Shown in pieces: positions 14,464 through 33,169 of a stretch of DNA of 64,000 nucleotides (positions are counted from its first letter, which is position 1; each line of letters starts with the position of its first letter). A program made the translations under genes and the position numbers. Origin of the DNA: Variovorax paradoxus (GTDB lineage: Bacteria > Pseudomonadota > Gammaproteobacteria > Burkholderiales > Burkholderiaceae_C); NCBI RefSeq assembly GCF_030815855.1, contig NZ_JAUSXG010000001.1:5146001-5210000 (forward strand), given 5' to 3'. The notes beneath the pieces were generated by a model, which was given only the letters and a program-made list of their open reading frames with translations, made no database searches and was not told the DNA's origin.

Positions 14464-17400
14464 TTACTGCGTCGATGCCGCCCGCACGCGTGCCACCTGC
14501 GCCTGCAAGTCGGCCCATGCCGGCTCCTGGGGTGCAAAACGTGCGCGCATGTAGCCGGCGAGCTCGGCAATCTGCCGGTCGTCGAGCGCTTCGCGGAACG
14601 CCGGCATGAAGCCGATGTCGCGGTTTGCGGGTTCGCGCACGCCGTCGAGGATGGTGCGCAGCAGGTTGTCAGGCCGCGCACTCGTGAGGTTGCTGTTGAG
14701 CGCGAGCGGCGTGTTCACGCCGAGCAGCGTGGGGCCGTCGCCGTCGTGATGGCATGACGCACAGGCACTGTCGAACATGCGCTGCGCGGGGCCGAGCAGT
14801 TGGCCCTGCGTGCGCGCAGAGGTGTCGACGGCTTGCTGTGCCACGGCTTGCGGCTCGGCCGCGGGCGCGGGATTGAACGAGGCGAGATACGTGGCCATCG
14901 CGCGCACGTCGGAGTCTGGCACCTGCGCCAGCTCTCGCACCACCTCCGCCATGGGGCCGCCCGCAATGCCATGGCGCTGCGTGTAGCCTTGGCGCAGATA
15001 GCGGTAGAGCTCGTCGGCATCCCAGGGCACGGCCGATTTCGACAGGCCGGTGAGCGCGGGCGCTTCCCAGCCATCGATCATCGCGCCCGAGAGAAATGCG
15101 CTGCCGCCCTGCTCCGCGCCAAGCGCGTTGCGCGGCGTGTGGCAGGCACCGCAATGGCCCAGGCCGTTGACGAGGTAGGCCCCGCGGTTCCACTCCGCGC
15201 TTTGCGTGGCCACCGGCTGCAGCGGCGCCGGATCATGAAAGAGCGCATTCCAGCCGGCCATCAACGGCCGCATGCTGAACGGAAACTTCAGCTCGGCCTG
15301 GGGCGTTTCGGCGCGGACCGCGGGCATGGACATGAAGTACGCGTACAGCGCCTGCAGGTCGTCGTCGCTGGTCTTGGCAAATGCGGTGTACGGAAAGGCC
15401 GGATACAGGTGGTGGCCGTCGCGCGAGACCCCCTCGCGCATTGCGCGCTGGAAAGCACTGAACGACCAGCGGCCCAGGCCCGTGTCGGCATCGGGCGTGA
15501 GATTGGTGGTGTAGAGCGTGCCGAACGGCGTTTCCATGGCGCGGCCGCCTGCGTTGGGCGCACCGCCCGGCGCGGTGTGGCACACGGCGCAGTCGCCGAG
15601 TGCGGCGAGCACGCGGCCGCGTTCGATGGTGGACTCGCTGTAGACCGGGGCGGTCAACGAGATGGGAGCGACGGCGGAGCGCCAGCCGAGCAGGCCGGCG
15701 ATGAGGCCGATGCCGCCGATGAAGAGGGCGGCGCCGGTGGCCCACAGGCCCTTGCGCTGGGGCCACGGCGCATCGGTTTTGCTCCTTCCCCTTCCGGGGG
15801 AAGGTTGGGATGGGGGCACGGCAGTGTCACCATTCGAACGCCACTCGCCCCCACCCCCGCCCTCCCCCAGAGGGGGAGGGAGCAAACCCCGGTTCAGCTC
15901 CGCAAGCACCTTTTCCGGCGTGAACGGCGGCTCGCGAAACCTTACCCCGGTCGCATCGAAGATCGCATTCGCAATCGCCGCCGTTCCCGGCACCGAAGAC
16001 GACTCACCCGCGCCCAGCGAAGGTTCGCCGGGCCGCGGCATGTGCATGATTTCGATCACCGGCACTTCGCGGAAGTTGATGATCGGGTAGCTGCCCCATT
16101 CGCGGCTCGCGACCACGCCCGAAGGCAGCACGCCCAGCAGCTGCGCGCCACCCGTCGAGCCTGCGCCCTGCTGCTGCGGCGGTGGCGCGAACTTCACCTC
16201 TTCCTTCAGCGCGCGGCTGGTGGTCTGGATCACGTTGCCGTGCACCTGGTGCTCGACCCCGGCGGGGTTGATCATCAGTCCCGCGTCATGCCCCACCACC
16301 ACGCGGCGCACATGCACTTCGCCCGTCCTGCGGTTGACCTCGACGTCAGCCACCCACGCGGCCCAGGCGGCGCCGAAGCCCGGCCACTTGCTGTGGATGT
16401 AGCGCGCGTAGGCAAAGCCCTGGCCGAAGAGGATGTCGCCGCCCTCGCCCAGCCCGCCATTGGAGTTCTCCTGCGGACCGGCGCGCATACGCCAGCCCGC
16501 CTTCTGCGCGGTCGCCTGCACCAGCTCGACCGCGCGCGGATCGTTCAGGTGGCGCAGGCGGAACTGCACCGGATCGACGCCCGCCGCGGTGGCGAGCTCG
16601 TCGATGTACGACTCGTGCGCGAAGGAACTCGGCAGCGCCGACACACCGCGCAGCCACGAGGCGCGCACGATCGGCGCCATGTCGTTGACCTTCACACGCA
16701 GGTTGTCGTAGCTATACGGCGGGCGCGCCGTGCGGTCGCCCATCTCGAAGGCCTGCGCCACCGGCTCGATGGTGCGCGTGAGCAGCAGCGCGAGCGTGGG
16801 GGCGCCGTTCGATGGATACGAGGTCTCGAAGTCGTAGGCCGCAATGCGGCCGTCGGCCATGAGGCCGCCGTCCACTTCCATGAGCTGCGCGGCGCCCTTG
16901 GGCTCCCAGGCATGCTCCTGTTCGCGCGTGAGCTGCACGCGCACCGGTGCACCCACGGCGCGCGCGAGCAGCGCCGCATCGGCGGCCACGTCGTCGGCGC
17001 CGTTGCGGCCGTAGCAGCCCGCGGCTTCCATGCGGATGACGTCGACCTGCACGTCGTCCAGGTCCATGAGCCTGGCGAGGTCGGCGCGCAGCACGTGCGG
17101 GTTCTGCGAGCCGGCCCACACGCGAAGCTGTGTACCGCTGCCGTCCTGCGGCTGCCATTCGGCCAGCGCGCACGAAGGGCCGATGGACGCGTGCATCTGG
17201 TACGGCCACACATAGGTGCGATGCATCGGCTGCGCGGCCGCGGCGAGCGCGCCATCGACATCGCCTTCGTTGACCAGCACGCGCTGGGTCGACGGGTTGT
17301 CGCGCAAGGCTTGGGCGAGGTCCGAGAGATCCGGCATGCCGGGCCAGGATTTCCATGTCAGGCGCAGCTCACGCAACGCCTGCTCGGCGTGCTCTTCACG

Positions 17401-18225
17401 CTCGGCCACGATGCCGACGAAGTCGCGGATCACGACCACCGCGCGAATGCCGGGAATGTGCGCAATGGACGATTCGTCCACCGACTCGAGTGTGTTGCCG
17501 ATGAAATCGCCATGGTCCGCACCGGCATACGGCGGGCGCACCACGCGGCCGTGCAGCATGCCGGGCACACGCATGTCGTGCACGAACACGCTTTCTCCCG
17601 CGAGCTTGGCGGGAATGTCGATGCGCGGCTGACGCGTGCCGACGATGCGGTAGTCGGCCGGGTGCTTGGGCTGCGCGCGGGGGTCGAGCCGCAGCACAGT
17701 GCGCTGCCCCGCCACCAGGTCGGCATAGTTCACGCGGCGATCGGGTTCGTCGGCCACGCGCACCACGCCGTTGCGGATCTGCAGCGCGTCGGCGGTCGCG
17801 CCAAGGCGCTCGGCGGCGCGTGCGAGCAGCCATGCGCGCGCCTGCGCAGCCGCAAGGCGCAGCGGCTGCGAGTGGATCTGGATCGACGCGCTCGCGATGG
17901 TCGCGCCCTGGTTGGGGGCACGCGCGGTGTCGCCGAGCATCACGCGCACGCAAGGCATGCCGAGGTCGAGTTCCTCGGCCACGATCTGCGCGAGCGCGGT
18001 CTGGATGCCGGTGCCGAGATCGACGTGGCCGTTGAGCGCCGAGGCGCTGCCGTCGTCCCATACGGCGAGCAGGATCTCGTCGCCTTCGATGGGGTTGCCC
18101 GCCACGGCTGTGGGCTGGCCCTTGGCGGGTGGGGGTGCGGGCGGTGTTTCGCGTACCACCAGCAGCACGCCGTCGGCTGAAAGAAAGTCTGCGCGGGTCA
18201 GCGGCAGATCGGCGCGGCGTGTCAC
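14464..18225 (-). CDS. nicB: Nicotinate dehydrogenase large subunit (molybdopterin + three cytochrome c domains)
   Basis: Hydroxylates nicotinate to 6-hydroxynicotinate with water as oxygen donor and passes electrons to cytochrome c. The 1253 residues hold a xanthine-dehydrogenase-type molybdenum domain (about 1-775, with GHVDLGTGIQTALAQIVAEE and a late GAGESSSVPGTAAIANAIFD). After a linker and one membrane-spanning segment (about 825-850) come three cytochrome c domains with heme motifs CAVCH, CGACH and CASCH at about 878, 1022 and 1153. This fusion and length match Pseudomonas putida NicB. The neighbouring nicA, pncA, hnr and enamidase support nicotinate over isoquinoline or aldehydes. Oddity: the linker, residues about 781-815, is encoded by a translated REP-like repeat. 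Confidence 0.88.
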   Translation of the reverse strand: MTRRADLPLTRADFLSADGVLLVVRETPPAPPPAKGQPTAVAGNPIEGDEILLAVWDDGSASALNGHVDLGTGIQTALAQIVAEELDLGMPCVRVMLGDTARAPNQGATIASASIQIHSQPLRLAAAQARAWLLARAAERLGATADALQIRNGVVRVADEPDRRVNYADLVAGQRTVLRLDPRAQPKHPADYRIVGTRQPRIDIPAKLAGESVFVHDMRVPGMLHGRVVRPPYAGADHGDFIGNTLESVDESSIAHIPGIRAVVVIRDFVGIVAEREEHAEQALRELRLTWKSWPGMPDLSDLAQALRDNPSTQRVLVNEGDVDGALAAAAQPMHRTYVWPYQMHASIGPSCALAEWQPQDGSGTQLRVWAGSQNPHVLRADLARLMDLDDVQVDVIRMEAAGCYGRNGADDVAADAALLARAVGAPVRVQLTREQEHAWEPKGAAQLMEVDGGLMADGRIAAYDFETSYPSNGAPTLALLLTRTIEPVAQAFEMGDRTARPPYSYDNLRVKVNDMAPIVRASWLRGVSALPSSFAHESYIDELATAAGVDPVQFRLRHLNDPRAVELVQATAQKAGWRMRAGPQENSNGGLGEGGDILFGQGFAYARYIHSKWPGFGAAWAAWVADVEVNRRTGEVHVRRVVVGHDAGLMINPAGVEHQVHGNVIQTTSRALKEEVKFAPPPQQQGAGSTGGAQLLGVLPSGVVASREWGSYPIINFREVPVIEIMHMPRPGEPSLGAGESSSVPGTAAIANAIFDATGVRFREPPFTPEKVLAELNRGLLPPPLGEGGGGGEWRSNGDTAVPPSQPSPGRGRSKTDAPWPQRKGLWATGAALFIGGIGLIAGLLGWRSAVAPISLTAPVYSESTIERGRVLAALGDCAVCHTAPGGAPNAGGRAMETPFGTLYTTNLTPDADTGLGRWSFSAFQRAMREGVSRDGHHLYPAFPYTAFAKTSDDDLQALYAYFMSMPAVRAETPQAELKFPFSMRPLMAGWNALFHDPAPLQPVATQSAEWNRGAYLVNGLGHCGACHTPRNALGAEQGGSAFLSGAMIDGWEAPALTGLSKSAVPWDADELYRYLRQGYTQRHGIAGGPMAEVVRELAQVPDSDVRAMATYLASFNPAPAAEPQAVAQQAVDTSARTQGQLLGPAQRMFDSACASCHHDGDGPTLLGVNTPLALNSNLTSARPDNLLRTILDGVREPANRDIGFMPAFREALDDRQIAELAGYMRARFAPQEPAWADLQAQVARVRAASTQ
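15781..15886. repeat. REP-like inverted pair inside nicB
   Basis: Two hairpin units facing each other. The first stem is CCTTCCCC/GGGGAAGG at 15784-15804; the second is CCCTCCCCC/GGGGGAGGG at 15860-15880. Each is followed by a G-rich tail (ttgggatgggggc type). The pair lies in frame in the nicB coding sequence and yields a Gly/Pro/Ser-rich linker (LLPPPLGEGGGGG and PSQPSPGRG). The same family occurs at 18244, 22384, 28385, 33185 and 45085. Confidence 0.88.
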
Positions 18226-18358: not shown

Positions 18359-18859
18359 TCATAAATTCACCATCTCTCGCATGCGCGCCGCGGCTCGCTG
18401 CACCGCGTCCAGAATTTCAATATGTGTTCCGCAGCGGCACAGGTTGCCCGACAGTTCGCTACGGATGCGCGCCTCGCTCGCCTGCGGATCGCGCGCGAGC
18501 AGCGCCGCGGCCTGCATCACCATGCCGTTCAAGCAATAGCCGCACTGCGCGGCCTGCGCATCTTCGAAGGCCGCCTGCACCGGATGCCAACGGCCGCGCG
18601 TGCCCAGGCCTTCGAGCGTGGTGACGGCACGGCCCCCCACGCCATGCGCGGGAATCACGCAAGCGCGCGCCGCCACGCCGTCGACATGCACCGTGCAGGC
18701 GCCGCATTGGCCGAGGCCGCAACCGTACTTGGGCCCATTCAGGCCCAGGTCGTTGCGCAGCAGGTGCAGCAGCGTGGCCTCGCGCGGCACGCCCGGGAGC
18801 GAACAGGCCTGCCCGTTGACCTGCAGTTGCAGCGGCTCAGCGCCGCAAGTGACCGTCAC
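18359..18859 (-). CDS. nicA: Nicotinate dehydrogenase small [2Fe-2S] subunit
   Basis: Electron-transfer subunit paired with NicB. The 166 residues hold two [2Fe-2S] sites in the usual order. The plant-ferredoxin-like site is YGCGLGQCGACTVHVDG with a fourth Cys at VAARAC. The helical-domain site is CGYC followed by NLCRCGTH. There is no FAD subunit nearby, as expected for NicAB, where the cytochrome domains take the place of the flavin chain. I chose the GTG at 18859, which overlaps the last 23 bases of the upstream binding-protein gene and suggests translational coupling; other starts further upstream are possible. A REP pair separates it from nicB. Confidence 0.88.
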   Translation of the reverse strand: MTVTCGAEPLQLQVNGQACSLPGVPREATLLHLLRNDLGLNGPKYGCGLGQCGACTVHVDGVAARACVIPAHGVGGRAVTTLEGLGTRGRWHPVQAAFEDAQAAQCGYCLNGMVMQAAALLARDPQASEARIRSELSGNLCRCGTHIEILDAVQRAAARMREMVNL

Positions 18860-19997
18860 GGGTGTACATCTCCAAGTCGACAAACGTCGAACCGTTGTGG
18901 TTCCTCGCGCTGTACTCGACCGGGAAATCGCCGAAGCGCGTGCTGCCGATGCTTTCGAGCCCGGCAATGAAGCTGTCGCGCGTGAGCGTCTTGCCTCCAC
19001 GGCGGAGGCCTTCGACCATCACGCGCGAAGCGATGTAGCCCTCGAGCGTGGTGTAGCTGTCGATCTTCTCGCCGAACTCGGCGCGGTCGCGCTGGTAGTC
19101 GGCCACGATGGGCACGCGCACGGCCTCCGGCGGCGGCACGATGCTGGCCGTGACCAGCCCGGCCAGCTTGCCCTCGAGCCGTTTCGCCGAGCCCGCGGCA
19201 TCGGTGATGCCGACCGACAGCGTGTAGAGCGGCGCCGCCCCGCCGCCCGCGCGGTAGTCGCGCATGAAGACTTCGACCATGCGCCCCGCCATGATCATCA
19301 GAACCGCGCCTGGCTTGACCTCGGCCAGGCCGGCGAGCACCTGCTTGGCGTCTTCGGCGGTGATGGCAAGCGGTAGCGTCTTCACGACCTGCACCTTGTA
19401 GTCGGCGGCAAGCTGCTCGCAGGTGGCGAGGTTCGACTTGCCGAAGGCGCTGTCCTGGTAGACCACGGCAATCGACGACAGGCTGATGGTCGAGAGATGG
19501 CTGATGATCTTGCGCAGCTCCAGGTCGTAGCCTGCGCGCACGTGAAACAGCAGGCGGTTGACCTTGGCGCGGAACGAGCTGGTGCCCACCAGCGGTGCGA
19601 ACATGGGCACGCCGGCCTTCTCGGCGAGCGGCATCGCGGCCACGAGGTTGCCGGTGGCCACATAGCCCGCGAGCGCGAAGACCTTGTCCTCGTCGATCAG
19701 CTTGGCCGTGTTGAGGGCGGTCTTCGCGGGTTCGTAGGCATCGTCATACGTGACGAGCTCGATCTTGCGGCCGTTGACACCGCCCGACTTGTTGACGCGG
19801 TCGAAGTACAGCTTGATGCCGGCACGGTAGTCGATGCCGAAGTCCTTGGCTGGGCCGCTGAACACGGCCGACTGGCCGATGCGGATGACGCTGTCGGTCA
19901 CGCCGTTCTCCGCGCGTGCCGAACGCAGGAGGCCGGGGCCTATCGCCAGGGCTGCGCCGCCCGCCACGAGGGTGCGCCTCGAAATAGAAGTCTTCAT
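18837..19997 (-). CDS. ABC transporter substrate-binding protein (Peripla_BP_6), Tat signal
   Basis: A 386-residue periplasmic binding protein of the branched-chain amino acid type. The N-terminus has a twin-arginine motif (SRRTLVAGGAAL) with cleavage likely near ARAEN. The mature domain starts SVIRIGQSAVFSGPAKDFG, has the typical NKSGGVNGRKIELVTYDD, and continues with AIVVYQDSAFGKSNL-like spacing. It sits between the nicotinamidase and nicA in a catabolic cluster with Liv-type ATPases and permease. I infer that it binds nicotinate, nicotinamide or a related pyridine, or provides a second specificity for that importer. The ATG at 19997 gives the signal peptide directly. Confidence 0.85.
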   Translation of the reverse strand: MKTSISRRTLVAGGAALAIGPGLLRSARAENGVTDSVIRIGQSAVFSGPAKDFGIDYRAGIKLYFDRVNKSGGVNGRKIELVTYDDAYEPAKTALNTAKLIDEDKVFALAGYVATGNLVAAMPLAEKAGVPMFAPLVGTSSFRAKVNRLLFHVRAGYDLELRKIISHLSTISLSSIAVVYQDSAFGKSNLATCEQLAADYKVQVVKTLPLAITAEDAKQVLAGLAEVKPGAVLMIMAGRMVEVFMRDYRAGGGAAPLYTLSVGITDAAGSAKRLEGKLAGLVTASIVPPPEAVRVPIVADYQRDRAEFGEKIDSYTTLEGYIASRVMVEGLRRGGKTLTRDSFIAGLESIGSTRFGDFPVEYSARNHNGSTFVDLEMYTRDGHLRR

Positions 19998-20065
19998 GCG
20001 TATCGTCAGTCCGTTGTCGTTGTTGTTGCCGTGCGGGTGAACGCGGTGGAGATGAATGGATGTGT

Positions 20066-20788
20066 TCAGGCAGCCTGAATGTCGCCGGACTGGATGCGCT
20101 TGACACCCTTGGCCGTCATTTGCTTCCATGCCGCGGCGAGCGAGCCGTTGAGGTCGATGGCGCGCGTGGCATCTTCGATCACATACACCTCGAAGCCGGC
20201 CTTGCGCGCATCGAGCGCGGTCCAGGCCACGCAGAAGTCGGTGGCCAGCCCAACCACGTACACCGTCTTGATGCCGCGCTGCTTGAGATAGCCGCCCAGC
20301 CCGGTGGCGGTCTTGCGGTCGGCCTCCTCGAAGGCGGAATAGCTGTCGACACCCTTGTGGAAGCCCTTGCGGACGATGACCTGCGCGGTGGGCAGCTTCA
20401 GGTTCTTGTGCAGCGCCGCGTCATCGGTGCCCTGCACGCAGTGGTCGGGCCAGAGCACTTGGGTGCCGTAAGAAAGCTTGATGCTGCTGAACGGCTTCTG
20501 ACCGGCATGCGCGCTCGCGAACGACGCATGGCCTTGCGTGTGCCAGTCTTGCGTGACGACGATGTTCTCGAACGACTCGGCCAGCTTGTTGATCACCGGC
20601 ACCACCTCGGCACCGCCCTTCACGGGCAGCGTGCCGCCGTCGACGAAGCAGTTCTGCACGTCGATCACGATCAGCGCGGACTTGTCGTTCGGCTTCAACT
20701 TCGACGCCGCGAACAACGTTCCCGTCGCGCCGAGCAAGCTCAACGCAGCCGTGGATTTGAGGAGGGATCTGCGGTGCGTGTCGTGCAT
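20066..20788 (-). CDS. pncA: Tat-exported nicotinamidase
   Basis: Hydrolyses nicotinamide to nicotinate and ammonia. The catalytic triad of the isochorismatase-like family is visible: Asp in ALIVIDVQNCFVDGG, Lys in VIVRKGFHKGVDSYS, and Cys in GLATDFCVAWTALDA. The metal-binding DWHTQGHASFAS is present too. The 240 residues include about 28 extra at the N-terminus with a twin-arginine motif (HRRSLLKSTAALSLLG), so the enzyme is probably periplasmic, whereas the familiar PncA is cytoplasmic. It lies between Liv-type livF and a binding protein, which suggests that nicotinamide is converted outside and nicotinate imported. Pyrazinamide would be an alternative substrate. Confidence 0.9.
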   Translation of the reverse strand: MHDTHRRSLLKSTAALSLLGATGTLFAASKLKPNDKSALIVIDVQNCFVDGGTLPVKGGAEVVPVINKLAESFENIVVTQDWHTQGHASFASAHAGQKPFSSIKLSYGTQVLWPDHCVQGTDDAALHKNLKLPTAQVIVRKGFHKGVDSYSAFEEADRKTATGLGGYLKQRGIKTVYVVGLATDFCVAWTALDARKAGFEVYVIEDATRAIDLNGSLAAAWKQMTAKGVKRIQSGDIQAA

Positions 20789-20840: not shown

Positions 20841-21575
20841 CTAGACGCTCAGGTAGGCGCGGCGCACTTCCTCGTTGGCCGCGAGCTCTGCCATGGTGGC
20901 GTGGTAGCGGATCTGGCCCTTCTCGAGCACATAGGCCCGGTCGGACACCAGCTCGGCGAAATGCATGTTCTGTTCCGACAGCAGAATGCTCACGCCCTGC
21001 GCCTTGAGCTCCAGGATCATGTTGGCCATCTGCTCGACGATGACCGGCGCCACGCCTTCCGAGGGCTCGTCGAGCAGCACCAGGTACGGGTTGCCCATGA
21101 GCGTGCGTGCCACGGTGAGCATCTGCTGCTCGCCGCCGCTCATGCGGCCGCCCGGGCGGTCGGGCATTTCGCCCAGGTTCGGGAACAGCTTGAACAGCCG
21201 CTCGGGCGTCCACAGCGGTGCCTCGGTGCCGTCGGCCCAGCGGCGCGGCGGCTGCTTGCCCACCTCGAGGTTTTCCATCACCGTGAGATCGGTGAACACG
21301 CGGCGGTCTTCAGGCACGAAGCCCAGGCCGAGCTTCGCCGCGTGATGAGGCTCGCTCTTCGAGATGTCGTGCCCCAGAAAGCTCACGTGGCCCTTGCGCT
21401 TGGCGAGCATGCCGATCAGCGTCTTGAGCGTGGTCGATTTGCCGGCGCCGTTGCGGCCCATGAGCGCGACGACCTCGCCGCGGCGCACTTCAAGATCGAC
21501 GTCGTACAGGATCTGTGCGGCGCCGTACCAGGCGCACAGCGCGTTCGCCTTCAGCAGTGTTTCGTGCGTGCTCAT
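20841..21575 (-). CDS. livF: Liv-type ABC transporter ATPase, LivF class
   Basis: A 244-residue ATPase of the branched-chain amino acid class. Walker A is GRNGAGKSTTLKTL, the signature is MSGGEQQMLTVARTL, and Walker B is LVLLDEPSEGVAP; the typical LivF EQNMHFAELVSDRAYVLEKG follows. It overlaps livG by four bases (ATGA), so the two are coupled. With livG, livHM and one or both binding proteins it makes an importer inside the nicotinate cluster. The substrate is inferred to be a pyridine acid or amide rather than leucine. Confidence 0.92.
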   Translation of the reverse strand: MSTHETLLKANALCAWYGAAQILYDVDLEVRRGEVVALMGRNGAGKSTTLKTLIGMLAKRKGHVSFLGHDISKSEPHHAAKLGLGFVPEDRRVFTDLTVMENLEVGKQPPRRWADGTEAPLWTPERLFKLFPNLGEMPDRPGGRMSGGEQQMLTVARTLMGNPYLVLLDEPSEGVAPVIVEQMANMILELKAQGVSILLSEQNMHFAELVSDRAYVLEKGQIRYHATMAELAANEEVRRAYLSV

Positions 21576-22375: not shown

Positions 22376-22383
22376 TTTTGGCT

Positions 22384-22420
22384 TACTCCCTCTCCCTCTG
22401 GGAGAGGGTTGGGGTGAGGG
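22384..22420. repeat. Single REP-like unit before livG
   Basis: CCCTCTCCC/GGGAGAGGG stem with TCT loop, followed by ttggggtgaggg. This is the only unpaired copy in the window. Its minus-strand purine tract sits directly in front of the livG start. Confidence 0.85.
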
Positions 22421-24914: not shown

Positions 24915-26120
24915 TCAGTCCGCGGCGCGGGACTTCTTGACGTCGGCGGCGGTCGGCTGGAACTTGGCGCCGTCGAAGTACGTGTAGTCGACCATCACGC
25001 CCTTGCCGTTCTCGTTCTTCGTCTTGCCGACGAAGGCGCCCATGGTCGACTGGTGGTCTTCGGCGCGGTAGCTGATCTTGCCGAACGGCGTGTCGACCTG
25101 CAGGCCCTTGAAGGCGGCCACGAGCTTCGGCGTTTCCGTGCTCTTGGCCTTTTCGATGCCGGCCGCCACCGACTTGATCATGCTGTAGCCGACCACCGAG
25201 CCCAGGCGCGGATAGTCCTTGTACTTGCCGTGGTACGCCAGGAAGAAGGCCTTGTGCTCGGGCGTCTGGATGCCGTACCAGGGATAGCCGGTCACGATCC
25301 AGCCGTTGGGCGTCTCGTCCTTGAGCGGATCGAGGTACTCGGGCTCGCCGGTCAGCACGCTCACCACCGTGCGGTCCTTGAAGAGGCCGCGGGTGTTGCC
25401 CTCGCGCACGAACTTGGAAAGGTCGGCAGCGAACAGCACGTTGAAGATCGCGTCGGGCTTGGCATCGGCGAGCGCCTGCACCACGGCGCCCGCATCGACC
25501 TTGCCGAGCGGCGGCGCCTGCTCGGCGACGAACTCGACATCGGGCTGTGCAGCCTTCAAGAGCGTCTTGAACGCGGCCACGGCCGACTGGCCGTACTCGT
25601 AGTTGGGGTACACGACGGCCCAGCGCTTCTTCTTGAGCTTGACCGCTTCGGGCACCAGCATCGCGGCCTGCATGTAGGTGCCGGGGCGCAGGCGGAAGGT
25701 GTATTCGTTGCCGCCCTGCCAGGTCATCTTGTCGGTCAGCGGTTCGCCGGCCAGGAAGAAGATCTTTTTCTGCTTGGCGAAGTCGGCCACCGCCAGGCCG
25801 GTGTTCGACAGGAAGGTGCCGGTCAGCACGTCGATCTTCTCGCGCGCCACCAGCTCTTCGGCCACGCGCACCGCGTCGCCGGGGTTGGCGTTGTCGTCGC
25901 GCGTGATGAGCTCGACCTTGCGGCCGTTGACGCCGCCCTTGGCATTGATCTCTTCCACGGCCAGCTCCATGCCCTTCTTGTAGGGCTCGAGGAAGGCGGG
26001 CTGGGCCTTGTAGCTGTTGACCTCGCCGATCTTGATCACGCCCTGGGCATGGGCAGGAACGAGGGCCGTGGCCAGCGTGGCAAGGGCCGCGGCGCTGAAG
26101 ACGTGACGCAATGGGTTCAT
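24915..26120 (-). CDS. ABC transporter substrate-binding protein (Peripla_BP_6), Sec signal
   Basis: A 401-residue periplasmic binding protein. The Sec signal peptide runs to about residue 25 (ALVPAHAQG). The mature part begins VIKIGEVNSYKAQPAFLEPYK and shows the family's INAKGGVNGRKVELITRDDNANPG and a RWAVVYPNYEYGQSAVAAFK segment. It lies just upstream of the fused permease and downstream of the DUF1185 pair, so it is probably the primary binding protein of this importer. It differs clearly from the Tat-type binding protein at 18837, giving the cluster two receptors. Confidence 0.88.
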   Translation of the reverse strand: MNPLRHVFSAAALATLATALVPAHAQGVIKIGEVNSYKAQPAFLEPYKKGMELAVEEINAKGGVNGRKVELITRDDNANPGDAVRVAEELVAREKIDVLTGTFLSNTGLAVADFAKQKKIFFLAGEPLTDKMTWQGGNEYTFRLRPGTYMQAAMLVPEAVKLKKKRWAVVYPNYEYGQSAVAAFKTLLKAAQPDVEFVAEQAPPLGKVDAGAVVQALADAKPDAIFNVLFAADLSKFVREGNTRGLFKDRTVVSVLTGEPEYLDPLKDETPNGWIVTGYPWYGIQTPEHKAFFLAYHGKYKDYPRLGSVVGYSMIKSVAAGIEKAKSTETPKLVAAFKGLQVDTPFGKISYRAEDHQSTMGAFVGKTKNENGKGVMVDYTYFDGAKFQPTAADVKKSRAAD

Positions 26121-26192: not shown

Positions 26193-26777
26193 TCAGCGAA
26201 GCCCGTCTTCACCCTTGACTTCGCTCGCCTGCAACCCGCCGATGCGAGGCAGCGGACGGCCGCTGTCGGTGACGGCCACCGCCACCACGATCTCGTTGGC
26301 GCGCGGTGCGTCGGACACGCGGGCCTCGACGGCATCGAAATGGCTGCGCACGAACGCGGCGTCCTTGTGGCCGAGCGGCACGTCGATGGCCGTGCCGAGC
26401 GTGCCGCGCTTCTTGGCCGAGGGCACGAGCGCCGCGCCCTTTTCAACGGCCACGCGCAGCGGCGCGCCGAGCTTGGGATGCAGGATGGCGGCCGCATGTT
26501 CGAGCTCGCCGCTCTCGCCCACGATGGCGGCCTTGCCGTAGCTCTGTGCCTGGCCAGGCTCGATGCCGAGCGCCTTCACGGCCTTTTGGCCGAGCAGTGC
26601 GCCGAGCTCTTCGCCGATGGCGATCAGCTCGTCGAGGTTCTCGCTGTAGCGCCCGGCGTAGGGGTTCTCGATGACGGCGATGGCGACGGCGCGGCGCGTG
26701 GGCGGCGAGATGTCGCGGCCCATTTCCTTGCGGGTTTCGTCGACCTGGATGACGAGCTTGCGGATGTTGGCGGTCAT
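26193..26777 (-). CDS. DUF1185 'amino acid synthesis' family protein, paralogue 1
   Basis: A 194-residue protein of PF06684 (DUF1185), whose known structure resembles the Bacillus chorismate mutase fold but whose reaction is not established. Shared family blocks are VIENPYAGRY, SYGKAAIVGESGELEHAAA, ALVPSAKKRG, AIDVPLGHKDAAFVRSHFDA and a C-terminal DGLR. It is a paralogue of the next gene upstream (same blocks, shorter middle). Its place between the importer and 6-hydroxynicotinate reductase suggests a role in nicotinate breakdown after ring opening. I chose the ATG at 26777. No signal peptide, so cytoplasmic. Confidence 0.85.
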   Translation of the reverse strand: MTANIRKLVIQVDETRKEMGRDISPPTRRAVAIAVIENPYAGRYSENLDELIAIGEELGALLGQKAVKALGIEPGQAQSYGKAAIVGESGELEHAAAILHPKLGAPLRVAVEKGAALVPSAKKRGTLGTAIDVPLGHKDAAFVRSHFDAVEARVSDAPRANEIVVAVAVTDSGRPLPRIGGLQASEVKGEDGLR

Positions 26778-26808
26778 GTCTTGTGTTCCTTCGTGTCTCT
26801 TGTTCGGG

Positions 26809-27450
26809 TCAGCGCAGGCCGTCCCACTTGCTGATGTCCTTGGCCAGCAGCCCGCCGACCCGGGCATGCACGCGGTAGCCGGTGCTCATGGCCAGGATGA
26901 AGACGATCTCGTCGGCGGCCGGCGCGCCGGGCACGCGCACCTCGATGGCATCGAACTGGCCGCGCACGTAGCTGGCGTTGATGTTGGTGAGCGGCACGTC
27001 GAGCGTGGCGCCGGGCGGGCCGACCTTCTTGGTCGAGGGCACGATGGACAGCGCATTGCCGGGCTGGCCGGTTTTTTCTTCGGCCTTGCCCGCGGTGTAG
27101 GCGGCGCGGCTGCCCTTCCAGCCGAGCAGTTCGCGCATCGCATAACCGCCGGGCACATGCCAGAGCGCGCCGTGCTCGAGCTCGCCCGCGGCGCCGACGA
27201 TGGCGCCCTTGCCGTAGGTGGCGATCTGCTCGAGCGGCACGTCCATGGCGGCATGCAGCCGGTGCGCCATGTCGACGCCCACCGGGTCGAGCAACGCCAT
27301 CATCGGCAGGATGTCGGGCTCGTAGCGGCCCGCGAACGGATTCGTCAGCACCGCGCCGATGGCACCGCGCACCAACGGGGTGTCGGCGCGCGGGCCGAAC
27401 TCGTGGTGGATGTGCTCGACATGGGTGAAGACGCGGCGTATATCGATCAT
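26809..27450 (-). CDS. DUF1185 'amino acid synthesis' family protein, paralogue 2
   Basis: A 213-residue PF06684 member paralogous to the gene 31 bases downstream. Matching blocks are VLTNPFAGRY, TYGKGAIVGAAGELEHGAL, SIVPSTKKVG, TLDVPLTNINASYVRGQFDA and a terminal DGLR. It differs by an insertion of about 20 residues after the GELEH block (WKGSRAAYTAGKAEEKTGQ). Conservation of Glu-His and the Tyr-Gly-Lys block in both suggests that both are active or form a heteromer. Cytoplasmic. The function is not known and is inferred only from context. Confidence 0.85.
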   Translation of the reverse strand: MIDIRRVFTHVEHIHHEFGPRADTPLVRGAIGAVLTNPFAGRYEPDILPMMALLDPVGVDMAHRLHAAMDVPLEQIATYGKGAIVGAAGELEHGALWHVPGGYAMRELLGWKGSRAAYTAGKAEEKTGQPGNALSIVPSTKKVGPPGATLDVPLTNINASYVRGQFDAIEVRVPGAPAADEIVFILAMSTGYRVHARVGGLLAKDISKWDGLR

Positions 27451-27471: not shown

Positions 27472-28374
27472 TTAAGCAAATACTGAACCAACTGCATCGG
27501 CGCGCGCCGTCGGCAGCGCCTTCGAGCATAAGGGTTCAATAAGTCGCCACTGCCCCTGGCAAACGAGCAGAGCGGCCCAGATCAGCCCGCCTTTCTGCAG
27601 CACCCTGGCGCAGACAGCGCCCGTATCGAGCGCGCTTTTTATCTGCGAAGGTGCCAGCGGCGGCACATCGACCGTGACCCGGAGGTCGCCCAGGTCGCTG
27701 TCGTCCTTGCATTCGTTGGCCGGAAGCCGGCGAATGGCGGCATCGTCCACGTCGACGGCGTTGGCAATCACGGTGGCGGCCGCATCGGCCTGGGCTGCGG
27801 TGGCCGCGAGGACCGTCACGCTGTCGGCAATGCCCAGCGAGAAGCTGCGGCCGCGCCAGCCGCTGGTGGCCACGCCGCGCACCGGCTGCTCGGCCTTGAT
27901 CTCGAACTGGCCGTCGGTCGTGAGGATGCCGGTGTCTTGCCAGTCGAAGCGCGCCAGGTCGGCATACACCCCCACACGCGCCGACTGGCCCAGGGCAAGA
28001 TGCAGCGCGATGTCGCCGCCGTTGTTGATCCAGGCGCGTTCGACGCCGGGGCGCTCGTAAAACGCGATCAGTTCCTGGGCCACGGAACCCGCGACCGCCG
28101 CCATGGGCGTGATGAACATCGGCGAGAACGCGGCGCACGCATTCCACATGCGCTGGGCGACCACGCCGCGCGGGCGCATGTTGTCGCTTGCGGGCAAACG
28201 CAGCAGCGGCAGCTCGCGCACCAGTTCGTCGAGCACATGGACGAAGCGCGCCCAGGCGGCGTCGTGCGCGGCCGCGACGGCATACGGATCGCCATACGCC
28301 TCGGCCACGATGTCGATCGGGCCATGGTTGAAATGCCAGCGGTTCGCATCGAGTGCGGTACGTTGGGCGGTCAT
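27472..28374 (-). CDS. UPF0280 family protein (ApbE-like fold)
   Basis: A 300-residue UPF0280 protein, distantly related to ApbE FAD:protein FMN transferases. Features visible are MTPMAAVAGSVAQELIAFYE-like ITPMAAVAGSVAQEL, AWINNGGDIALHLALGQ, and GVATSGWRGRSFSLGIADSVTVLA, which follow the ApbE order. It lies 149 bases after 6-hydroxynicotinate reductase with a REP pair in between, and 21 bases before the DUF1185 gene. In such clusters it may load flavin on the reductase; this is inference from fold and neighbourhood. The ATG at 28374 fits the family N-terminus. Confidence 0.82.
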   Translation of the reverse strand: MTAQRTALDANRWHFNHGPIDIVAEAYGDPYAVAAAHDAAWARFVHVLDELVRELPLLRLPASDNMRPRGVVAQRMWNACAAFSPMFITPMAAVAGSVAQELIAFYERPGVERAWINNGGDIALHLALGQSARVGVYADLARFDWQDTGILTTDGQFEIKAEQPVRGVATSGWRGRSFSLGIADSVTVLAATAAQADAAATVIANAVDVDDAAIRRLPANECKDDSDLGDLRVTVDVPPLAPSQIKSALDTGAVCARVLQKGGLIWAALLVCQGQWRLIEPLCSKALPTARADAVGSVFA

Positions 28375-28384
28375 GGCAACAGGT

Positions 28385-28523: not shown

Positions 28524-30149
28524 TCAGCCCAGCATGGGAGCGTGCCCCAGCGGCCACGGGTTCGCGTCGTCGATGACGAGCCACTGCCGTGCCAGTGGCG
28601 CGCCGTCTTCCTGCCACGCGCCGCGCGCGAGCGCCTGCTCGAGCGAGAAGATGTGTTCCATGTGGCCGCCGAGCGCCTGGTAGTCGCTTTGCCGCATGCT
28701 GAACTCGATGGGCGCCACGATGGCCGGCGTAGGCACGGTGCCAAAGCTGTTGTCGGGCATGCGCATGACGTCGGCCATCACGGTGATGCCGCCGCCGGGC
28801 CACACATAGGCCGGCGCGCCGCCGCAGGTGACGTTGACGAGCGCGCGCTTGATGGCGCGCGTCAGCAGCACGGGGTTTTCGGTGACGCCGGCGCGCAAAG
28901 AGCCGCCCGCGCCGCCGAGGAACAGCACGGTACACAGCGACGGCTCGCAGTTCTCGCCGATGCGCTCGACGATGCGGCGCACCTCGGCGGGCATTTCCTG
29001 CTCGACCGGCTTCAGCGCCTCGTCGAGCACGTACCACTGCGCATGCTCGCCGGTGGTCGAGGTCATGAGCAGGCGCAGGCCCGGGCGCGCGACCCCTTCT
29101 TCCCAGCCTTCGATGATCGAGAGCGGATCGGCAATGTCGGTGCCGCCCCAGCCGTTGCCCGGGTTCGCCACCTGGAAGTAGCGCCCCGGTGTCGACTTGC
29201 GGCCCAGCATCTGGATGCCCGACGGCGCCATGTCGAGGCAGCGCCCGGCCTGGTGCTCGGTGAGCACGCCGGTGATGTGGTCGTCGACCACCACCACCTC
29301 GTCGGCCACGCCTGCGAACTGGCGCGCGAAGATGCCGACCGCCGCCGAGCCGCAGCCCACGCGCATGCGCTGCTCCTCCACCCCGTTGACGATGGGCGCC
29401 TTGCCGGCCTGGATCACGAGGGTGGAACCGCCGTCGATGGTGCACTCGACGGCCTTCTTGTTGCCCAGCAGCTGCATCAGCTCGGCCGTCATGCGGCCTT
29501 CCTTCTTGCTGCCGCCGGTGAGGTGATGCACGCCGCCGAGCGAAAGCATCTGCGAACCATATTCGGCCGTGGTGACGTGGCCGACCACTTCGCCGCGGTA
29601 GCGCACGTTGGCCTGCTCGGAGCCGAGGAAGCGGTCGGTGTCGATCTTCACTTTGAAGCTGCAGTAGCTGAAGATGCCCTCGGTGACGACAGTGACCATG
29701 TCGACACCCTGGGCTTTCGAGGCCACGATGAACGGGGCAGGCTTGTAGTCCGGATAGGTGGTGGACGAGCCCACGCCGGTGACGAAGACTTCGTCGGCGT
29801 GCAGCAGGTCGCCGTTCCAGTCGGGGGCGCCAGCCTCCGCCACTGCGGTTTTTTCGGCGGCCGGTCTATCGAAGGGCACCAGCGTGGGCGCCTCGCTCGC
29901 GACCGCGCGGCGCAAGAGCACCACGGGGTCGACGCGCACCAGCACGCCTTCGCGGTTGGCATAGCGGTCGCAGGCGCCGGTACGGCCGTCGGAAATCTGG
30001 CAGAGCACCGGGCAGGCGTTGCACTCGACCTTGGCCGTGCTCATCTTGTCGTTGCGCGGCGGGGCCTTGCCGAAGGCGCCGCTGCCGGCTTCGGCAACCA
30101 CCGGCATGTCCATGCCGGGCAATCCGTCTGTCTTGGTGTGTTCGGTCAT
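28524..30149 (-). CDS. hnr: 6-hydroxynicotinate reductase
   Basis: Reduces 6-hydroxynicotinate to 1,4,5,6-tetrahydro-6-oxonicotinate, the second step of the reductive nicotinate route described in Eubacterium barkeri. The 541-residue product has an N-terminal iron-sulfur motif Cys-x2-Cys-x3-Cys-x8-Cys (VECNACPVLCQISDGRTGAC). Glycine-rich segments follow, such as GCGSAAVGIFARQFAG, NPGNGWGGTDIADPL, FLGGAGGSLRAGV and WPGGGITVMADVMRMP. A divergent ferredoxin-NADP reductase at 30465 could supply electrons, and an enamidase for the next step lies just beyond. I chose the ATG at 30149; an upstream in-frame start adds 35 residues without family character. It is first gene of the long leftward cluster. 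Confidence 0.88.
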   Translation of the reverse strand: MTEHTKTDGLPGMDMPVVAEAGSGAFGKAPPRNDKMSTAKVECNACPVLCQISDGRTGACDRYANREGVLVRVDPVVLLRRAVASEAPTLVPFDRPAAEKTAVAEAGAPDWNGDLLHADEVFVTGVGSSTTYPDYKPAPFIVASKAQGVDMVTVVTEGIFSYCSFKVKIDTDRFLGSEQANVRYRGEVVGHVTTAEYGSQMLSLGGVHHLTGGSKKEGRMTAELMQLLGNKKAVECTIDGGSTLVIQAGKAPIVNGVEEQRMRVGCGSAAVGIFARQFAGVADEVVVVDDHITGVLTEHQAGRCLDMAPSGIQMLGRKSTPGRYFQVANPGNGWGGTDIADPLSIIEGWEEGVARPGLRLLMTSTTGEHAQWYVLDEALKPVEQEMPAEVRRIVERIGENCEPSLCTVLFLGGAGGSLRAGVTENPVLLTRAIKRALVNVTCGGAPAYVWPGGGITVMADVMRMPDNSFGTVPTPAIVAPIEFSMRQSDYQALGGHMEHIFSLEQALARGAWQEDGAPLARQWLVIDDANPWPLGHAPMLG

Positions 30150-30246: not shown

Positions 30247-30262
30247 TGTAGCATTCCCTACA
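30247..30262. promoter_or_regulatory. Inverted repeat TGTAG-N6-CTACA, candidate operator
   Basis: Five-base arms around CATTCC in the divergent hnr/fpr promoter region. It shares the half-site TGTAG/CTACA with the longer repeat at 30280-30300. The TetR regulator two genes away is the obvious candidate ligand-responsive binder; this is inferred. Confidence 0.5.
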
Positions 30263-30279: not shown

Positions 30280-30300
30280 CTACATTCGCGGTCAATGTAG
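30280..30300. promoter_or_regulatory. Inverted repeat CTACATT-N7-AATGTAG, candidate operator
   Basis: Perfect 7-base arms with a 7-base spacer, 18 bases from the shorter repeat with the same half-site. It lies about 131 bases upstream of hnr and 165 upstream of the ferredoxin reductase start, suitable for controlling both directions. Confidence 0.55.
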
Positions 30301-30464
30301 CAAACAGGCCCGATGCTTGCAATGGTGTTTTCTCGCGGTGTTCATCGGGGTTTTTCCGACCAACGACAATGGAGGGTTCGGAGCCGGCCGACGGCTTGCG
30401 CCCCAAAGGCGCGCATTTCGGCTCAGCCACCTTCCTCAGTTACCAACCAACTCTTGAGTTCCGT

Positions 30465-31238
30465 ATGAGTGCATTCAGCGAAGAACGCGTCCTGAGCGTC
30501 CACCACTGGACCGACCGCCTGTTCACCTTCACCACCACGCGCGACCCGGCGCTGCGTTTTTCGAACGGCCATTTCACGATGATCGGCCTGAAGGTGAACA
30601 ACAAGCCCCTGCTGCGCGCGTACAGCATCGTGAGCCCGAACTACGAGGAGCATCTCGAGTTCCTGAGCATCAAGGTCGAAGAAGGCCCGCTCACCTCGAA
30701 GCTGCAGCACATCCAGGTGGGCGACACCATCATCGTGGGCCGCAAGCCCACCGGCACGCTGCTGATCGACTACACGCTGCCGGGCAAGCGCCTGTACCTG
30801 TTCGGCACGGGCACCGGCCTCGCACCATTCATGAGCATCATCCGCGACCCGGACACCTACGAGAAGTTCGAGCAGGTCATCCTGGTGCACGGCGTGCGCC
30901 AAGTCGACGAGCTGGCCTATCACGACCTCGTGACCGACCACCTGCCCAAGCATGAGTTTCTCGGCGAAATGGTCGCCAAGCAGCTGCTCTACTACCCGAC
31001 GGTCACGCGCGAGGAGTTCCGCAACCAGGGCCGCATCACCGACCTGATCTCGAGCAACAAGCTCACGGACGATCTCGGCCTGCCCCCGATCAATGCCGCG
31101 GAAGACCGCGTGATGCTGTGCGGCAGCCCGGGCCTCCTGGTCGACCTGAAGCACATCCTCGAGGCGCGTGGCTTCAAGGAAGGCAACACCTCGACGCCGG
31201 GCGATTTCGTGGTCGAACGCGCGTTTGCGGAAAAGTAG
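30465..31238 (+). CDS. fpr: Ferredoxin-NADP(+) reductase
   Basis: A 257-residue FAD enzyme that moves electrons between NADPH and ferredoxin or flavodoxin. The FAD site appears as LLRAYSIVSPNYEE (Arg-x-Tyr-Ser), the NADP site as GTGTGLAPFMSIIRDP, and CGSPGLLVDL near the C-terminus is typical. The protein ends FVVERAFAEK, as in bacterial Fpr. I chose the ATG at 30465; an earlier in-frame start at 30369 adds 32 residues of no family character. Divergent from hnr and followed by tetR and enamidase, it probably feeds electrons to 6-hydroxynicotinate reductase; a housekeeping or oxidative-stress role is the alternative. Confidence 0.9.
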   Translation: MSAFSEERVLSVHHWTDRLFTFTTTRDPALRFSNGHFTMIGLKVNNKPLLRAYSIVSPNYEEHLEFLSIKVEEGPLTSKLQHIQVGDTIIVGRKPTGTLLIDYTLPGKRLYLFGTGTGLAPFMSIIRDPDTYEKFEQVILVHGVRQVDELAYHDLVTDHLPKHEFLGEMVAKQLLYYPTVTREEFRNQGRITDLISSNKLTDDLGLPPINAAEDRVMLCGSPGLLVDLKHILEARGFKEGNTSTPGDFVVERAFAEK

Positions 31239-31256
31239 ACCAAGCTCACGCGCACG

Positions 31257-32015
31257 ATGGCCGACAGCCGCTCCGCCAGCACCAAGCCCCAGCGCCGCAC
31301 CGGTGTGCGCGAGGCGGCGGCGCAGGCCACGCGCGACAGCATCCTGAAGGCGGCGACCAAGGTGTTCGCCAAGTACGGCTACGACGGCGGCAGCGTGGAG
31401 AAGATCTCGAAGGCCGCCAAGTCGTACGACCGAATGATCTACTACTACTTCGGCAGCAAGGAAGGCCTCTTCATTGCGGTGCTCGAAGGCATCTACCAGC
31501 GCATGGACGACGCCGAGGCCGCCATCGCGCTCGACGCCTCGCGGCCCGTGGAGGCGCTGACCGAAGTCATTCGCTTCGTGCTGGGCTACTACCGCAAGAA
31601 CCCCGAGTTCGTCACGCTCCTGAACACCGAGAACCTGCACAAGGGCCGGCACATTTCGAAGTCGCTCAGGGCGCGCGAATACTCGTCGCGCGCGGTGGCG
31701 ATCATTGCCGAGATACTGGCCAGCGGCGCAGCGCAGGGACTGTTCCGCAAGGACCTGATTGCGCGCGACATCTACCTGCTGATTGCGTCCACCGGCTATT
31801 TCTACACCTCCAACCGGCACACGCTCACGGCTTTCCTCGGCGAGCCGCTGGAGTCGCCGGAGGCGATCACGCACTGGGAAAACTTCGTGATCGAGACCGT
31901 GCTGCGCACCGTGCGCGCAGACGAGGCACAAGACAACAACACCCCATCCCACGACCAGGACCACACGAAATGGCAGAAATCGCAGCCGGCGGCAAGTCGG
32001 GCAAAGTCGTCATAA
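31257..32015 (+). CDS. TetR-family transcriptional regulator
   Basis: A 252-residue TetR-type repressor. The helix-turn-helix is in ILKAATKVFAKYGYDGGSVE and the following KISKAAKSYDRMIYYYFGSKE. The rest is a helical ligand-binding domain. The last 15 residues or so (KWQKSQPAASRAKSS) come from sequence that overlaps the start of the enamidase gene by 46 bases, so translation is probably coupled. It likely controls the divergent hnr/fpr region, where two inverted repeats with a TGTAG half-site lie. The ligand is unknown, possibly a nicotinate intermediate. Confidence 0.88.
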   Translation: MADSRSASTKPQRRTGVREAAAQATRDSILKAATKVFAKYGYDGGSVEKISKAAKSYDRMIYYYFGSKEGLFIAVLEGIYQRMDDAEAAIALDASRPVEALTEVIRFVLGYYRKNPEFVTLLNTENLHKGRHISKSLRAREYSSRAVAIIAEILASGAAQGLFRKDLIARDIYLLIASTGYFYTSNRHTLTAFLGEPLESPEAITHWENFVIETVLRTVRADEAQDNNTPSHDQDHTKWQKSQPAASRAKSS

Positions 32016-33169
32016 AGAACATCGGGCTGCTGCTCTCGGGCGACATCGACAAGCCCATCCTCGACGCCGACACCATCGTGGTGAACGACGGCCTGATCGT
32101 TGCGGTCGGCAAGGAAAAAGACTGCGACCTCGAAGGCGCCAAGACCGTCATCGACGCGAAAAAAACCTGCGTGGCGCCAGGCCTGATCGACAGCCACGTG
32201 CACCCGGTGTTCGGCGACTGGACGCCGCGCCAGGGCCAGATCGGCTGGATCGACTCGACCATGCACGGCGGCGTGACCACCATGATTTCGGCCGGTGAGG
32301 TGCACCTGCCTGGCCGTCCGAAGGACATCGTGGGCCTGAAGGCGCTGGCCATCACCGCGCAGCGCGCGTTCGACAACTTCCGCCCCGGCGGCGTGAAGGT
32401 GCTGGCCGGTGCGCCGGTCATCGAGAAAGGCATGGTCGAAAGCGACTTCAAGGAACTCGCCGAAGCCGGCGTGGGCCTGCTCGGCGAAGTGGGCCTGGGC
32501 TCGGTCAAGGCCGGCTACGAGGCCAAGGAAATGGTGGCCTGGGCACGCAAGTACGGCATCCAGAGCACCATTCACACGGGCGGCCCGTCGATCCCCGGCT
32601 CGGGCCTGATCGACAAGGACGTGGTGCTGGAGGCCGACGCCGACATCATCGGCCACATCAACGGCGGGCATACCTCGCTGCCCGAGGCGCATGTGTGCGA
32701 GCTGTGCGAGAAGAGCTCGCGCGCCATCGAGATCGTGCACAACGGCAACGAGAAGGTGGCCATTGCGGCGGCCAAGGCGGCGCTCGAACTCAAGTGCCCG
32801 CATCGCGTGATCCTCGGTACCGACGGCCCCGCCGGCTCGGGCGTGCAACCGCTGGGCATCCTGCGCATGGTGGCCATGCTCTCGTCCATCGCGAACATTC
32901 CGGCCGAGCTGGTGTTCTGTTTTGCCACGGGCAACACGGCGAAGATCCGCAAGCTCAATTGCGGGCTGATCGAAGTGGGCCGCGATGCCGACTTCGTCTT
33001 CATGGACCGCGCGCAGCATTCGCCCGCGCCGGGTCTGCTCGAAAGCGTGCAGCTCGGCGACATTCCAGGCGTGGGCATGGTGATGATCGACGGCATCGTG
33101 CGCTGCGGCCGCAGCCGCAACACGCCGCCAGCGACCGAGATTCCGGTCGTCGTCTCAGGCGCCCCCTGA
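31970..33169 (+). CDS. Enamidase (amidohydrolase), nicotinate degradation
   Basis: Hydrolyses 1,4,5,6-tetrahydro-6-oxonicotinate to 2-formylglutarate and ammonia, the step after 6-hydroxynicotinate reductase. The 399-residue amidohydrolase has the binuclear-metal pattern: HxH in DSHVHPVFGD, Glu in LLGEVGLGSVKAGYEA, His in TIHTGG, a second His in IGHINGGHTS, and Asp in ILGTDGPAGSG. The N-terminal beta-sandwich and C-terminal return (RDADFVFMDRAQHSPAPG) are typical. Length and motifs match E. barkeri enamidase. Context with nicAB, hnr and pncA raises confidence over other amidohydrolases such as imidazolonepropionase. The ATG at 31970 overlaps tetR. Confidence 0.87.
   Translation: MAEIAAGGKSGKVVIKNIGLLLSGDIDKPILDADTIVVNDGLIVAVGKEKDCDLEGAKTVIDAKKTCVAPGLIDSHVHPVFGDWTPRQGQIGWIDSTMHGGVTTMISAGEVHLPGRPKDIVGLKALAITAQRAFDNFRPGGVKVLAGAPVIEKGMVESDFKELAEAGVGLLGEVGLGSVKAGYEAKEMVAWARKYGIQSTIHTGGPSIPGSGLIDKDVVLEADADIIGHINGGHTSLPEAHVCELCEKSSRAIEIVHNGNEKVAIAAAKAALELKCPHRVILGTDGPAGSGVQPLGILRMVAMLSSIANIPAELVFCFATGNTAKIRKLNCGLIEVGRDADFVFMDRAQHSPAPGLLESVQLGDIPGVGMVMIDGIVRCGRSRNTPPATEIPVVVSGAP

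Follow-up and report, generated by a model that had tools for sequence, protein, structure and literature searches.

The window analysed here is a stretch of 64,000 nucleotides from Variovorax paradoxus (positions 5146001-5210000 of the single 5.95-Mb contig of a genome rated 100% complete), and our subject is a nicotinate island at window positions 14464-33169. The gene content of this island makes it very likely that it encodes an aerobic, reductive route for both nicotinamide and nicotinate, of the type known from Azorhizobium. The initial annotation had placed nicA, nicB, a nicotinamidase, a 6-hydroxynicotinate reductase (Hnr), an enamidase and a Liv-type importer in one island, and every one of them was found there. 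The order of reactions that it read from them, in which NicAB, Hnr and the enamidase act in turn and a respiring bacterium forms 2-formylglutarate, fits every gene; its further claim of a new aerobic/fermentative hybrid must, however, be given up, as the Azorhizobium-type route and a conserved gene cluster are already in print, to judge from parts of PMC3511419. It had overlooked a UPF0280 gene, a pair of PF06684 genes, a ferredoxin reductase, a TetR gene and a second substrate-binding protein. We regard the locus as a well-conserved member of a known pathway, in which the helper families UPF0280 and PF06684 are the part that is worth experiment.

The nicotinate hydroxylase of Azorhizobium is membrane-bound and cytochrome-linked, and the aerobic route is said to have been worked out in a nodule bacterium by Kitts in 1989 and 1992. 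For aerobic Azorhizobium caulinodans, excerpts of PMC3511419 report the reduction to 1,4,5,6-tetrahydro-6-oxonicotinate (THON) and a continuation via glutarate, the same exit that we propose for the host; the paper describes the proteobacterial cluster of its Figure 4, in print since 2012, as conserved in A. caulinodans ORS571, B. japonicum USDA110, Rhodopseudomonas and strain SG-6C. The genes that carry our assignment are the following:

14464..18225, minus strand: nicB, the large subunit of a molybdenum hydroxylase (domains MoCoBD_1/2, Cytochrom_C and Cytochrome_CBB3)
18359..18859, minus strand: nicA, the 2Fe-2S subunit (Fer2, Fer2_2), with a likely GTG start at 18859 (upstream GGAG)
20066..20788, minus strand: nicotinamidase with a signal peptide like those of twin-arginine translocation (Tat) (NF008623, 183.5 bits against a cut-off of 174)
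28524..30149, minus strand: hnr, 6-hydroxynicotinate reductase (from named relatives; Cys-x2-Cys-x3-Cys-x9-Cys near the N-terminus)
31970..33169, plus strand: enamidase (PDB 2vun, E=1.6e-108, residues 2-381 of 386 aligned)

NicB bears three CxxCH motifs (residues 879, 1025 and 1155) as well as cytochrome c domains, and is 54.8% identical to the large subunit from a Pseudomonas plasmid nic cluster. At 96-97% identity, Hnr matches Variovorax proteins listed at NCBI as 6-hydroxynicotinate reductase (the best match, at 98%, is without a name), and its cysteines C43, C46, C50 and C60 are invariant among 42 sequences; no Pfam domain stands above cut-off in it, and no DUF39 model was listed up to E=10, in a search whose filters remove most matches above 0.1. 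The enamidase was compared with the PDB as a longer open reading frame (ORF; 31118-33169), and the only match at E<=1e-10 was 2vun (ENAMIDASE), which we take to originate from Eubacterium barkeri. To place the locus we used surveys of 398 genomes of the phylum, 61 of the genus and, for NicX, 150 of the order, the host being included in each, and, besides these, a further collection of 123 Hnr loci: 13 from plasmids, 80 from named genome contigs (the best 80 of at least 578 matches, skewed to near relatives) and 30 short loci taken from the same 398-genome draw. Hnr is present in 59/61 genomes of the genus Variovorax, so the gene set is not a matter of chance, and in 32/398 of those of the phylum, where it spans 15 genera; with this locus, the route reported in 1989-1992 gains a Variovorax example that is nearly genus-wide.

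All of the reactions in this species are predicted from the sequence. A nicotinamidase, probably exported, would convert nicotinamide to nicotinate, which NicAB would hydroxylate to 6-hydroxynicotinate while passing the electrons via its heme domains to the respiratory chain; the LIV-type ABC importer would bring either the substrate or 6-hydroxynicotinate into the cell. With electrons that probably come from a divergently encoded ferredoxin-NADP reductase, Hnr would then reduce 6-hydroxynicotinate to THON, from which the enamidase would release ammonia and 2-formylglutarate. Decarboxylation, with the PF06684 pair acting at the 2-formylglutarate step, would give glutarate semialdehyde and oxidation would give glutarate, to be activated by a coenzyme A (CoA) transferase and broken down by glutaryl-CoA dehydrogenase. 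The UPF0280 protein would mature Hnr, and the TetR protein would bind two palindromes.

This scheme shares elements with three known systems. Of the Azorhizobium-type pathway, sequence comparison recovers a heme-linked NicAB, Hnr and the enamidase in the window, and the glutaryl-CoA dehydrogenase gene (gcdH) with an adjacent CoA-transferase III in the host genome; the differences lie in the betaproteobacterial host and in the Tat-type nicotinamidase, the TetR gene and the conserved palindromes noted here. The Pseudomonas-type NicABCDEFX cluster has in common a NicAB with heme motifs, but NicX and NicE are without a match in the host genome, where the ring would be reduced rather than oxidatively cleaved. 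With the fermentation of E. barkeri, the details of which, including a nicotinate dehydrogenase that contains flavin adenine dinucleotide (FAD), are reportedly given by Alhapel in 2006, the window shares Hnr and the enamidase, whereas its hydroxylase is a heme-type NicAB instead of the FAD-containing enzyme. When the large subunit of an FAD-type hydroxylase (from locus L018) was used as a query, its match in the window was no more than partial, at 41%, and the full-length hydroxylase of the window is of the heme type.

Between hnr and the importer genes lie the two overlooked helper families:

27472..28374, minus strand: UPF0280/COG2122 protein, a distant ApbE relative and candidate Hnr maturation factor (NF003322, 403 bits against a cut-off of 290)
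26809..27450, minus strand: PF06684 paralogue 1 (AAs1; PF06684, 211.9 bits; PDB 3byq and 2qtp)
26193..26777, minus strand: PF06684 paralogue 2 (AAs2), a candidate 2-formylglutarate-handling protein (PF06684, 240.5 bits, ORF 26193-26867)

The UPF0280 subfamily NF003322 occurs in 32/398 genomes, and these are exactly the 32 that have Hnr (hypergeometric 6e-48, kinship ignored). The two genes are adjacent in 32/32, with their matches 8 to 522 bases apart, and the UPF0280 gene was missed in only 1/123 Hnr loci, a 3-kb contig. Given this one-to-one profile, a dedicated Hnr maturase would be the simplest reading of the UPF0280 protein, with covalent flavin transfer as one version of it; the Hnr of E. 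barkeri is reported by Alhapel (2006) to be a covalent flavoprotein with iron-sulfur clusters. The similarity to ApbE is distant: the protein scores 18.2 bits against a Pfam ApbE cut-off of 25.6, and its only PDB relative is 2o34 (profile E=1.6e-12). Passages of PMC5764234 likewise call COG2122 distantly related to ApbE, cite a doubt concerning its flavin-binding region, and describe COG2122, DUF39 and NIL/ferredoxin proteins as required for homocysteine synthesis in D. vulgaris. The window protein belongs to the same broad UPF0280 family as that COG2122 protein, but to a subfamily of its own, which is found in the same genomes as Hnr. Matches to Hnr with an inner stop or split over two frames were seen in genomes G139, G277 and G016 of the phylum survey and in G404 and G426 of the genus survey.

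The PF06684 proteins AAs1 and AAs2 are 38-40% identical to each other. Their family is present in 59/398 genomes, among them 31 of the 32 with Hnr, where by coordinates it adjoins UPF0280 each time; the sole exception is G139, whose locus (L171) consists of Hnr, UPF0280 and HyuA without PF06684. The 28 genomes that have PF06684 but lack Hnr yielded 30 loci, and in 16/30 of these a luciferase-like monooxygenase, an aldehyde dehydrogenase and an alpha/beta hydrolase are adjacent, a neighbourhood that presumably corresponds to the trigonelline (tgn) cluster. The late intermediates of the tgn pathway are, as reportedly found by Perchat (2018), the C4 analogue of 2-formylglutarate; if so, the chemistry common to both settings would be a formyl dicarboxylate losing CO2. 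The neighbour domains were verified by Pfam on the proteins of two such loci, L157 and L159. Two of the 30 loci adjoin an enamidase-like gene at 42-43% identity (G238, G289), and among the other 12 there are four with two of the three tgn-like genes. In addition, a second PF06684 pair stands beside the enamidase in G123:C11 (L169) and G194:C11 (L170), in each case at a distance from that genome's Hnr locus. The host has a third PF06684 gene (L168, G000:C1:3227578-3228096), beside a TctC-type binding protein and a gene of the fumarylacetoacetate-hydrolase type.

When 71 Hnr-linked proteins were compared with 19 of the tgn type (3/19 from loci in which one of the three genes is missing), a polar core of R5, K81, E90, E92, H93, R106, R163, E181, R193 and R197 proved to be kept at >=90% in both sets. 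In a midpoint-rooted tree of 106 PF06684 proteins, AAs1 forms one clade (support 0.999) and AAs2 another (support 0.89); a third (support 0.999) unites the 19 tgn-type proteins and a single further sequence. In solution PF06684 proteins are hexamers, and His, Glu and Arg residues are conserved at their interface (PMC2954203); the tree would be consistent with an old duplication of AAs1/AAs2, perhaps forming a mixed hexamer. The window thus has the PF06684 family in common with the tgn cluster and with the hcd cluster of coumarin breakdown, but its proteins fall in a separate clade, and no match to the tgn-type luciferase-type monooxygenase, aldehyde dehydrogenase or hydrolase was found in it (E<=1e-15).

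What this family does in the island can be read in two ways. We infer that it may act on the formyl dicarboxylate that is produced, and it might be the decarboxylase that the route lacks. Alternatively, PF06684 might not catalyse the formyl-acid step at all but serve Hnr as a chaperone or electron-transfer partner, a serious possibility to which we would give somewhat less than an even chance. Such a role would suit its place next to hnr-UPF0280 in 31/32 genomes whichever ring opener is present. It would also suit its relative HcdD, whose gene shares an operon with that of a coumarin reductase: parts of PMC7913881 state that the PF06684 homologue TgnF stimulates the TgnE-dependent oxidation of succinic semialdehyde, but that no such stimulating effect could be shown for HcdD, a null effect that counts against a general PF06684 rule. 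Against a partnership with Hnr stand the PF06684 genes beside enamidase-like genes in genomes without Hnr (G238, G289), the extra pairs with the enamidase at a second locus in G123 and G194, and the 16/30 Hnr-less loci that are monooxygenase/aldehyde dehydrogenase/hydrolase clusters.

Around the hnr-UPF0280-PF06684 core, both the hydroxylase and the ring opener appear to be exchangeable. Among the 32 Hnr genomes, a heme-type NicB (>=50% identity) is found in 15 loci, four of them as partial alignments, and an FAD-type molybdenum hydroxylase in 16, while G167 has neither type. The enamidase (E<=1e-60, genome-wide) lies within the Hnr locus in 16/32 and elsewhere in 2 (G123, G194). HyuA (>=60%) lies within the locus in 8/32; the search for it was confined to stretches of no more than 20 kb around hnr, so that copies elsewhere are possible. 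HyuB was seen in 5 of those 8; in G016 and G277 the stretch probably ends too soon to include it, and in G139 none was found in the 2.5 kb that follow hyuA. Neither ring opener is nearby in six of the 32 (G051, G071, G197, G274, G333 and G367), and the two occur together in 0/32 (Fisher p=2.9e-4, kinship ignored). The 13 plasmid records, searched without the chromosomes of their hosts, agree: the enamidase occurs in 0/9 with close HyuAB and in 4/4 of the others. Three weak enamidase fragments (34-35%) do appear in two of the nine HyuAB records, and one of the four enamidase records (L020) also carries distant HyuAB-like genes (40-43%). From this mutual exclusion and its position, HyuAB would seem to stand in for the enamidase.

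The same variability might suggest that the cluster degrades a different pyridine or a lactam and that its nicotinate labels were carried over from annotation, since a core that is also met with the FAD-type hydroxylase in 16/32 genomes and with HyuA in 8/32 may not everywhere act on 6-hydroxynicotinate. For the window we think this most improbable, its set being complete for nicotinate, with a nicotinamidase over the cut-off, NicAB, Hnr and an enamidase that spans nearly all of 2vun. A more inclusive proposal, which we make tentatively and consider rather doubtful, is that hnr-UPF0280-PF06684 forms a portable cassette for reducing pyridine rings, with swappable hydroxylases (NicAB or FAD type) and ring openers (the enamidase or the ATP-dependent HyuAB), in which the PF06684 pair would be a 2-formylglutarate decarboxylase (acting on the C4 analogue in trigonelline clusters) and UPF0280 a dedicated, cofactor-attaching Hnr maturase. 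Were it true, PF06684 ("amino acid synthesis") and NF003322 ("hypothetical protein") would each gain a narrow job in vitamin B3 breakdown, and decarboxylation by PF06684 would be a new enzymatic role for the chorismate-mutase-like fold. The gap from 2-formylglutarate to glutarate semialdehyde would likewise gain a candidate enzyme, and HyuAB, joined to the Hnr core, would provide a second and non-homologous means of opening the reduced ring.

The fate of 2-formylglutarate, which the initial annotation had left open, is most likely glutarate. At the metabolite level the glutarate route published in PMC3511419 answers the question, and the gcdH and CoA-transferase genes of the host and of the clusters of two relatives agree with it. 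The host gcdH (766 bits to 3eom) lies ~36 kb beyond the window and adjoins the CoA-transferase III gene and a LysR gene, a position from which the transferase may be supposed to act on glutarate. Since these host genes also serve other catabolism, better evidence comes from clusters of relatives: in a plasmid cluster of Rhizobium lusitanum (L024) a gcdH 80% identical to that of the host directly follows hyuB, and in Neopusillimonas maritima (L099) the gene directly after the enamidase encodes a CoA-transferase with 56% identity to that of the host.

Several observations nonetheless weigh against the route as we propose it. gcdH also serves lysine and tryptophan breakdown, so that finding it in the host says little. 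Among 93 Hnr loci, the cluster has no recurrent gene for a decarboxylase or a semialdehyde dehydrogenase, gcdH is matched in 1 and a CoA-transferase stands next to the enamidase in 1, and the only aldehyde dehydrogenase match is at 33%, in L099. An isocitrate lyase/phosphoenolpyruvate (PEP) mutase family gene is located ~8-13 kb from hnr in L008, L009 and L020, together with a PrpF-domain gene in L009. Finally, a NicC query retrieves two full-length matches at 32-36% and two short weak ones from the host genome, which is an ambiguous result. With glutaryl-CoA genes in only 2/93 loci (L008 and L009 have weaker CoA-transferase matches, at 37% and a partial 29%, distant from hnr), most clusters must leave the lower pathway elsewhere. 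The PF06684 pair is the only recurrent candidate that we noticed for the decarboxylation/semialdehyde step, although not all ORF clusters were identified.

The lower branch of E. barkeri, which leads through 2-(hydroxymethyl)glutarate and methyleneglutarate mutase to propionate and pyruvate, uses enzymes of the isocitrate lyase/PEP-mutase and PrpF families. That 2-formylglutarate should take this branch here seems highly improbable, even though Hnr and the enamidase are common to the window and E. barkeri and the SG-6C Hnr is 42% identical to that of E. barkeri (PMC3511419), and although no search aimed at the mutase and dehydrogenase of the branch was made: the genes in L008, L009 and L020 lie apart from the hnr operon and belong to families common in other pathways, so that we rate them as chance neighbours, whereas glutaryl-CoA genes stand inside the cluster of two relatives and Azorhizobium goes via glutarate, as the same source has it.

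That an oxidative maleamate route, its NicC-F encoded at some other site of the genome, should replace the reductive one or run beside it is scarcely to be expected: oxidative nic clusters do have a NicAB of this type and the host has its two NicC-like flavin monooxygenases at 32-36% identity, but this complete genome is without a match to NicX or NicE (E<=0.001), and the five queries NicC, D, E, F and X from the Pseudomonas plasmid gave no useful match in the window (best E 0.43). The observation that none of these genes is visible in the island accordingly stands, and of the genome search for nicC-F that had been suggested with it the NicE part supports that observation, as does NicX, while the NicC part remains ambiguous. 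The NicX query is known to work, as it was positive in 8/150 genomes of the order (3 at 52-55% and 5 at 36-39% identity); the NicE query has no positive control, and NicD and NicF were compared with the window only.

The remaining genes of the island, with one that adjoins it, are these:

13219..14403, minus strand: alpha/beta hydrolase with a Tat-like signal (PF00561, 5e-20), adjoining nicB but outside the conserved cluster
18837..19997, minus strand: second LIV-type substrate-binding protein with a Tat-like signal (PF13458, 1.7e-53, ORF 18837-20129; start inferred)
20841..21575, minus strand: livF-type ATPase (PF00005)
21572..22375, minus strand: livG-type ATPase (PF00005, PF12399; ORF 21572-22930), with an ATG start at 22375 likely from the upstream sequence
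22961..24883, minus strand: fused livHM-type permease (PF02653, two stretches)
24915..26120, minus strand: LIV-type substrate-binding protein (PF13458, 2.8e-71)
30247..30262, no strand: palindrome TGTAG-N6-CTACA in the hnr-reductase gap, a candidate operator
30280..30300, no strand: second palindrome, of the CTACATT..AATGTAG type, in the same gap, a candidate operator
30369..31238, plus strand: flavoprotein of the ferredoxin--NADP reductase type, a candidate Hnr electron donor (FAD_binding_6, NAD_binding_1; NF008178, 140 bits, below the cut-off of 390)
31257..32015, plus strand: TetR-family regulator (TetR_N, TetR_C_29; best NCBIfam RutR, below cut-off), overlapping the start of the enamidase

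The twin-arginine pattern of the nicotinamidase recurs in 34/37 relatives at >=65% identity (a manual count, the window included); an automatic tally over all matches, made without a shuffled control, gave 35/46, of which one, among 9 more distant proteins, is false. A twin-arginine-like signal is thus common to close Burkholderiales relatives, and the enzyme is probably extracytoplasmic. Because this signal is combined with a heme-carrying NicAB and two binding proteins, the arrangement suggests that deamidation and hydroxylation may take place outside the cytoplasm and that the importer may carry nicotinate or 6-hydroxynicotinate.

The ferredoxin reductase and TetR genes read divergently from hnr. 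One or both palindrome types occur in 31/44 hnr upstream regions, against 0.5% in shuffled regions; the sample consists of the window and 43 loci chosen from the 80 on contigs, many of them from Variovorax, so that kinship inflates the count. The palindromes are likely operator sites, which the TetR protein may bind.

The hydrolase at 13219..14403 was matched in 0/123 Hnr loci (E<=1e-8), of which 80 stop ~10 kb from hnr, so that a distal copy could escape, and it resembles NicD at 26% over 125 residues. Elsewhere in the window there are an IS66-type transposase gene near the nic island (8733-10325), an ImpA_N protein of a type VI secretion family (2036-3145) and a urocanase gene (48598-50331).

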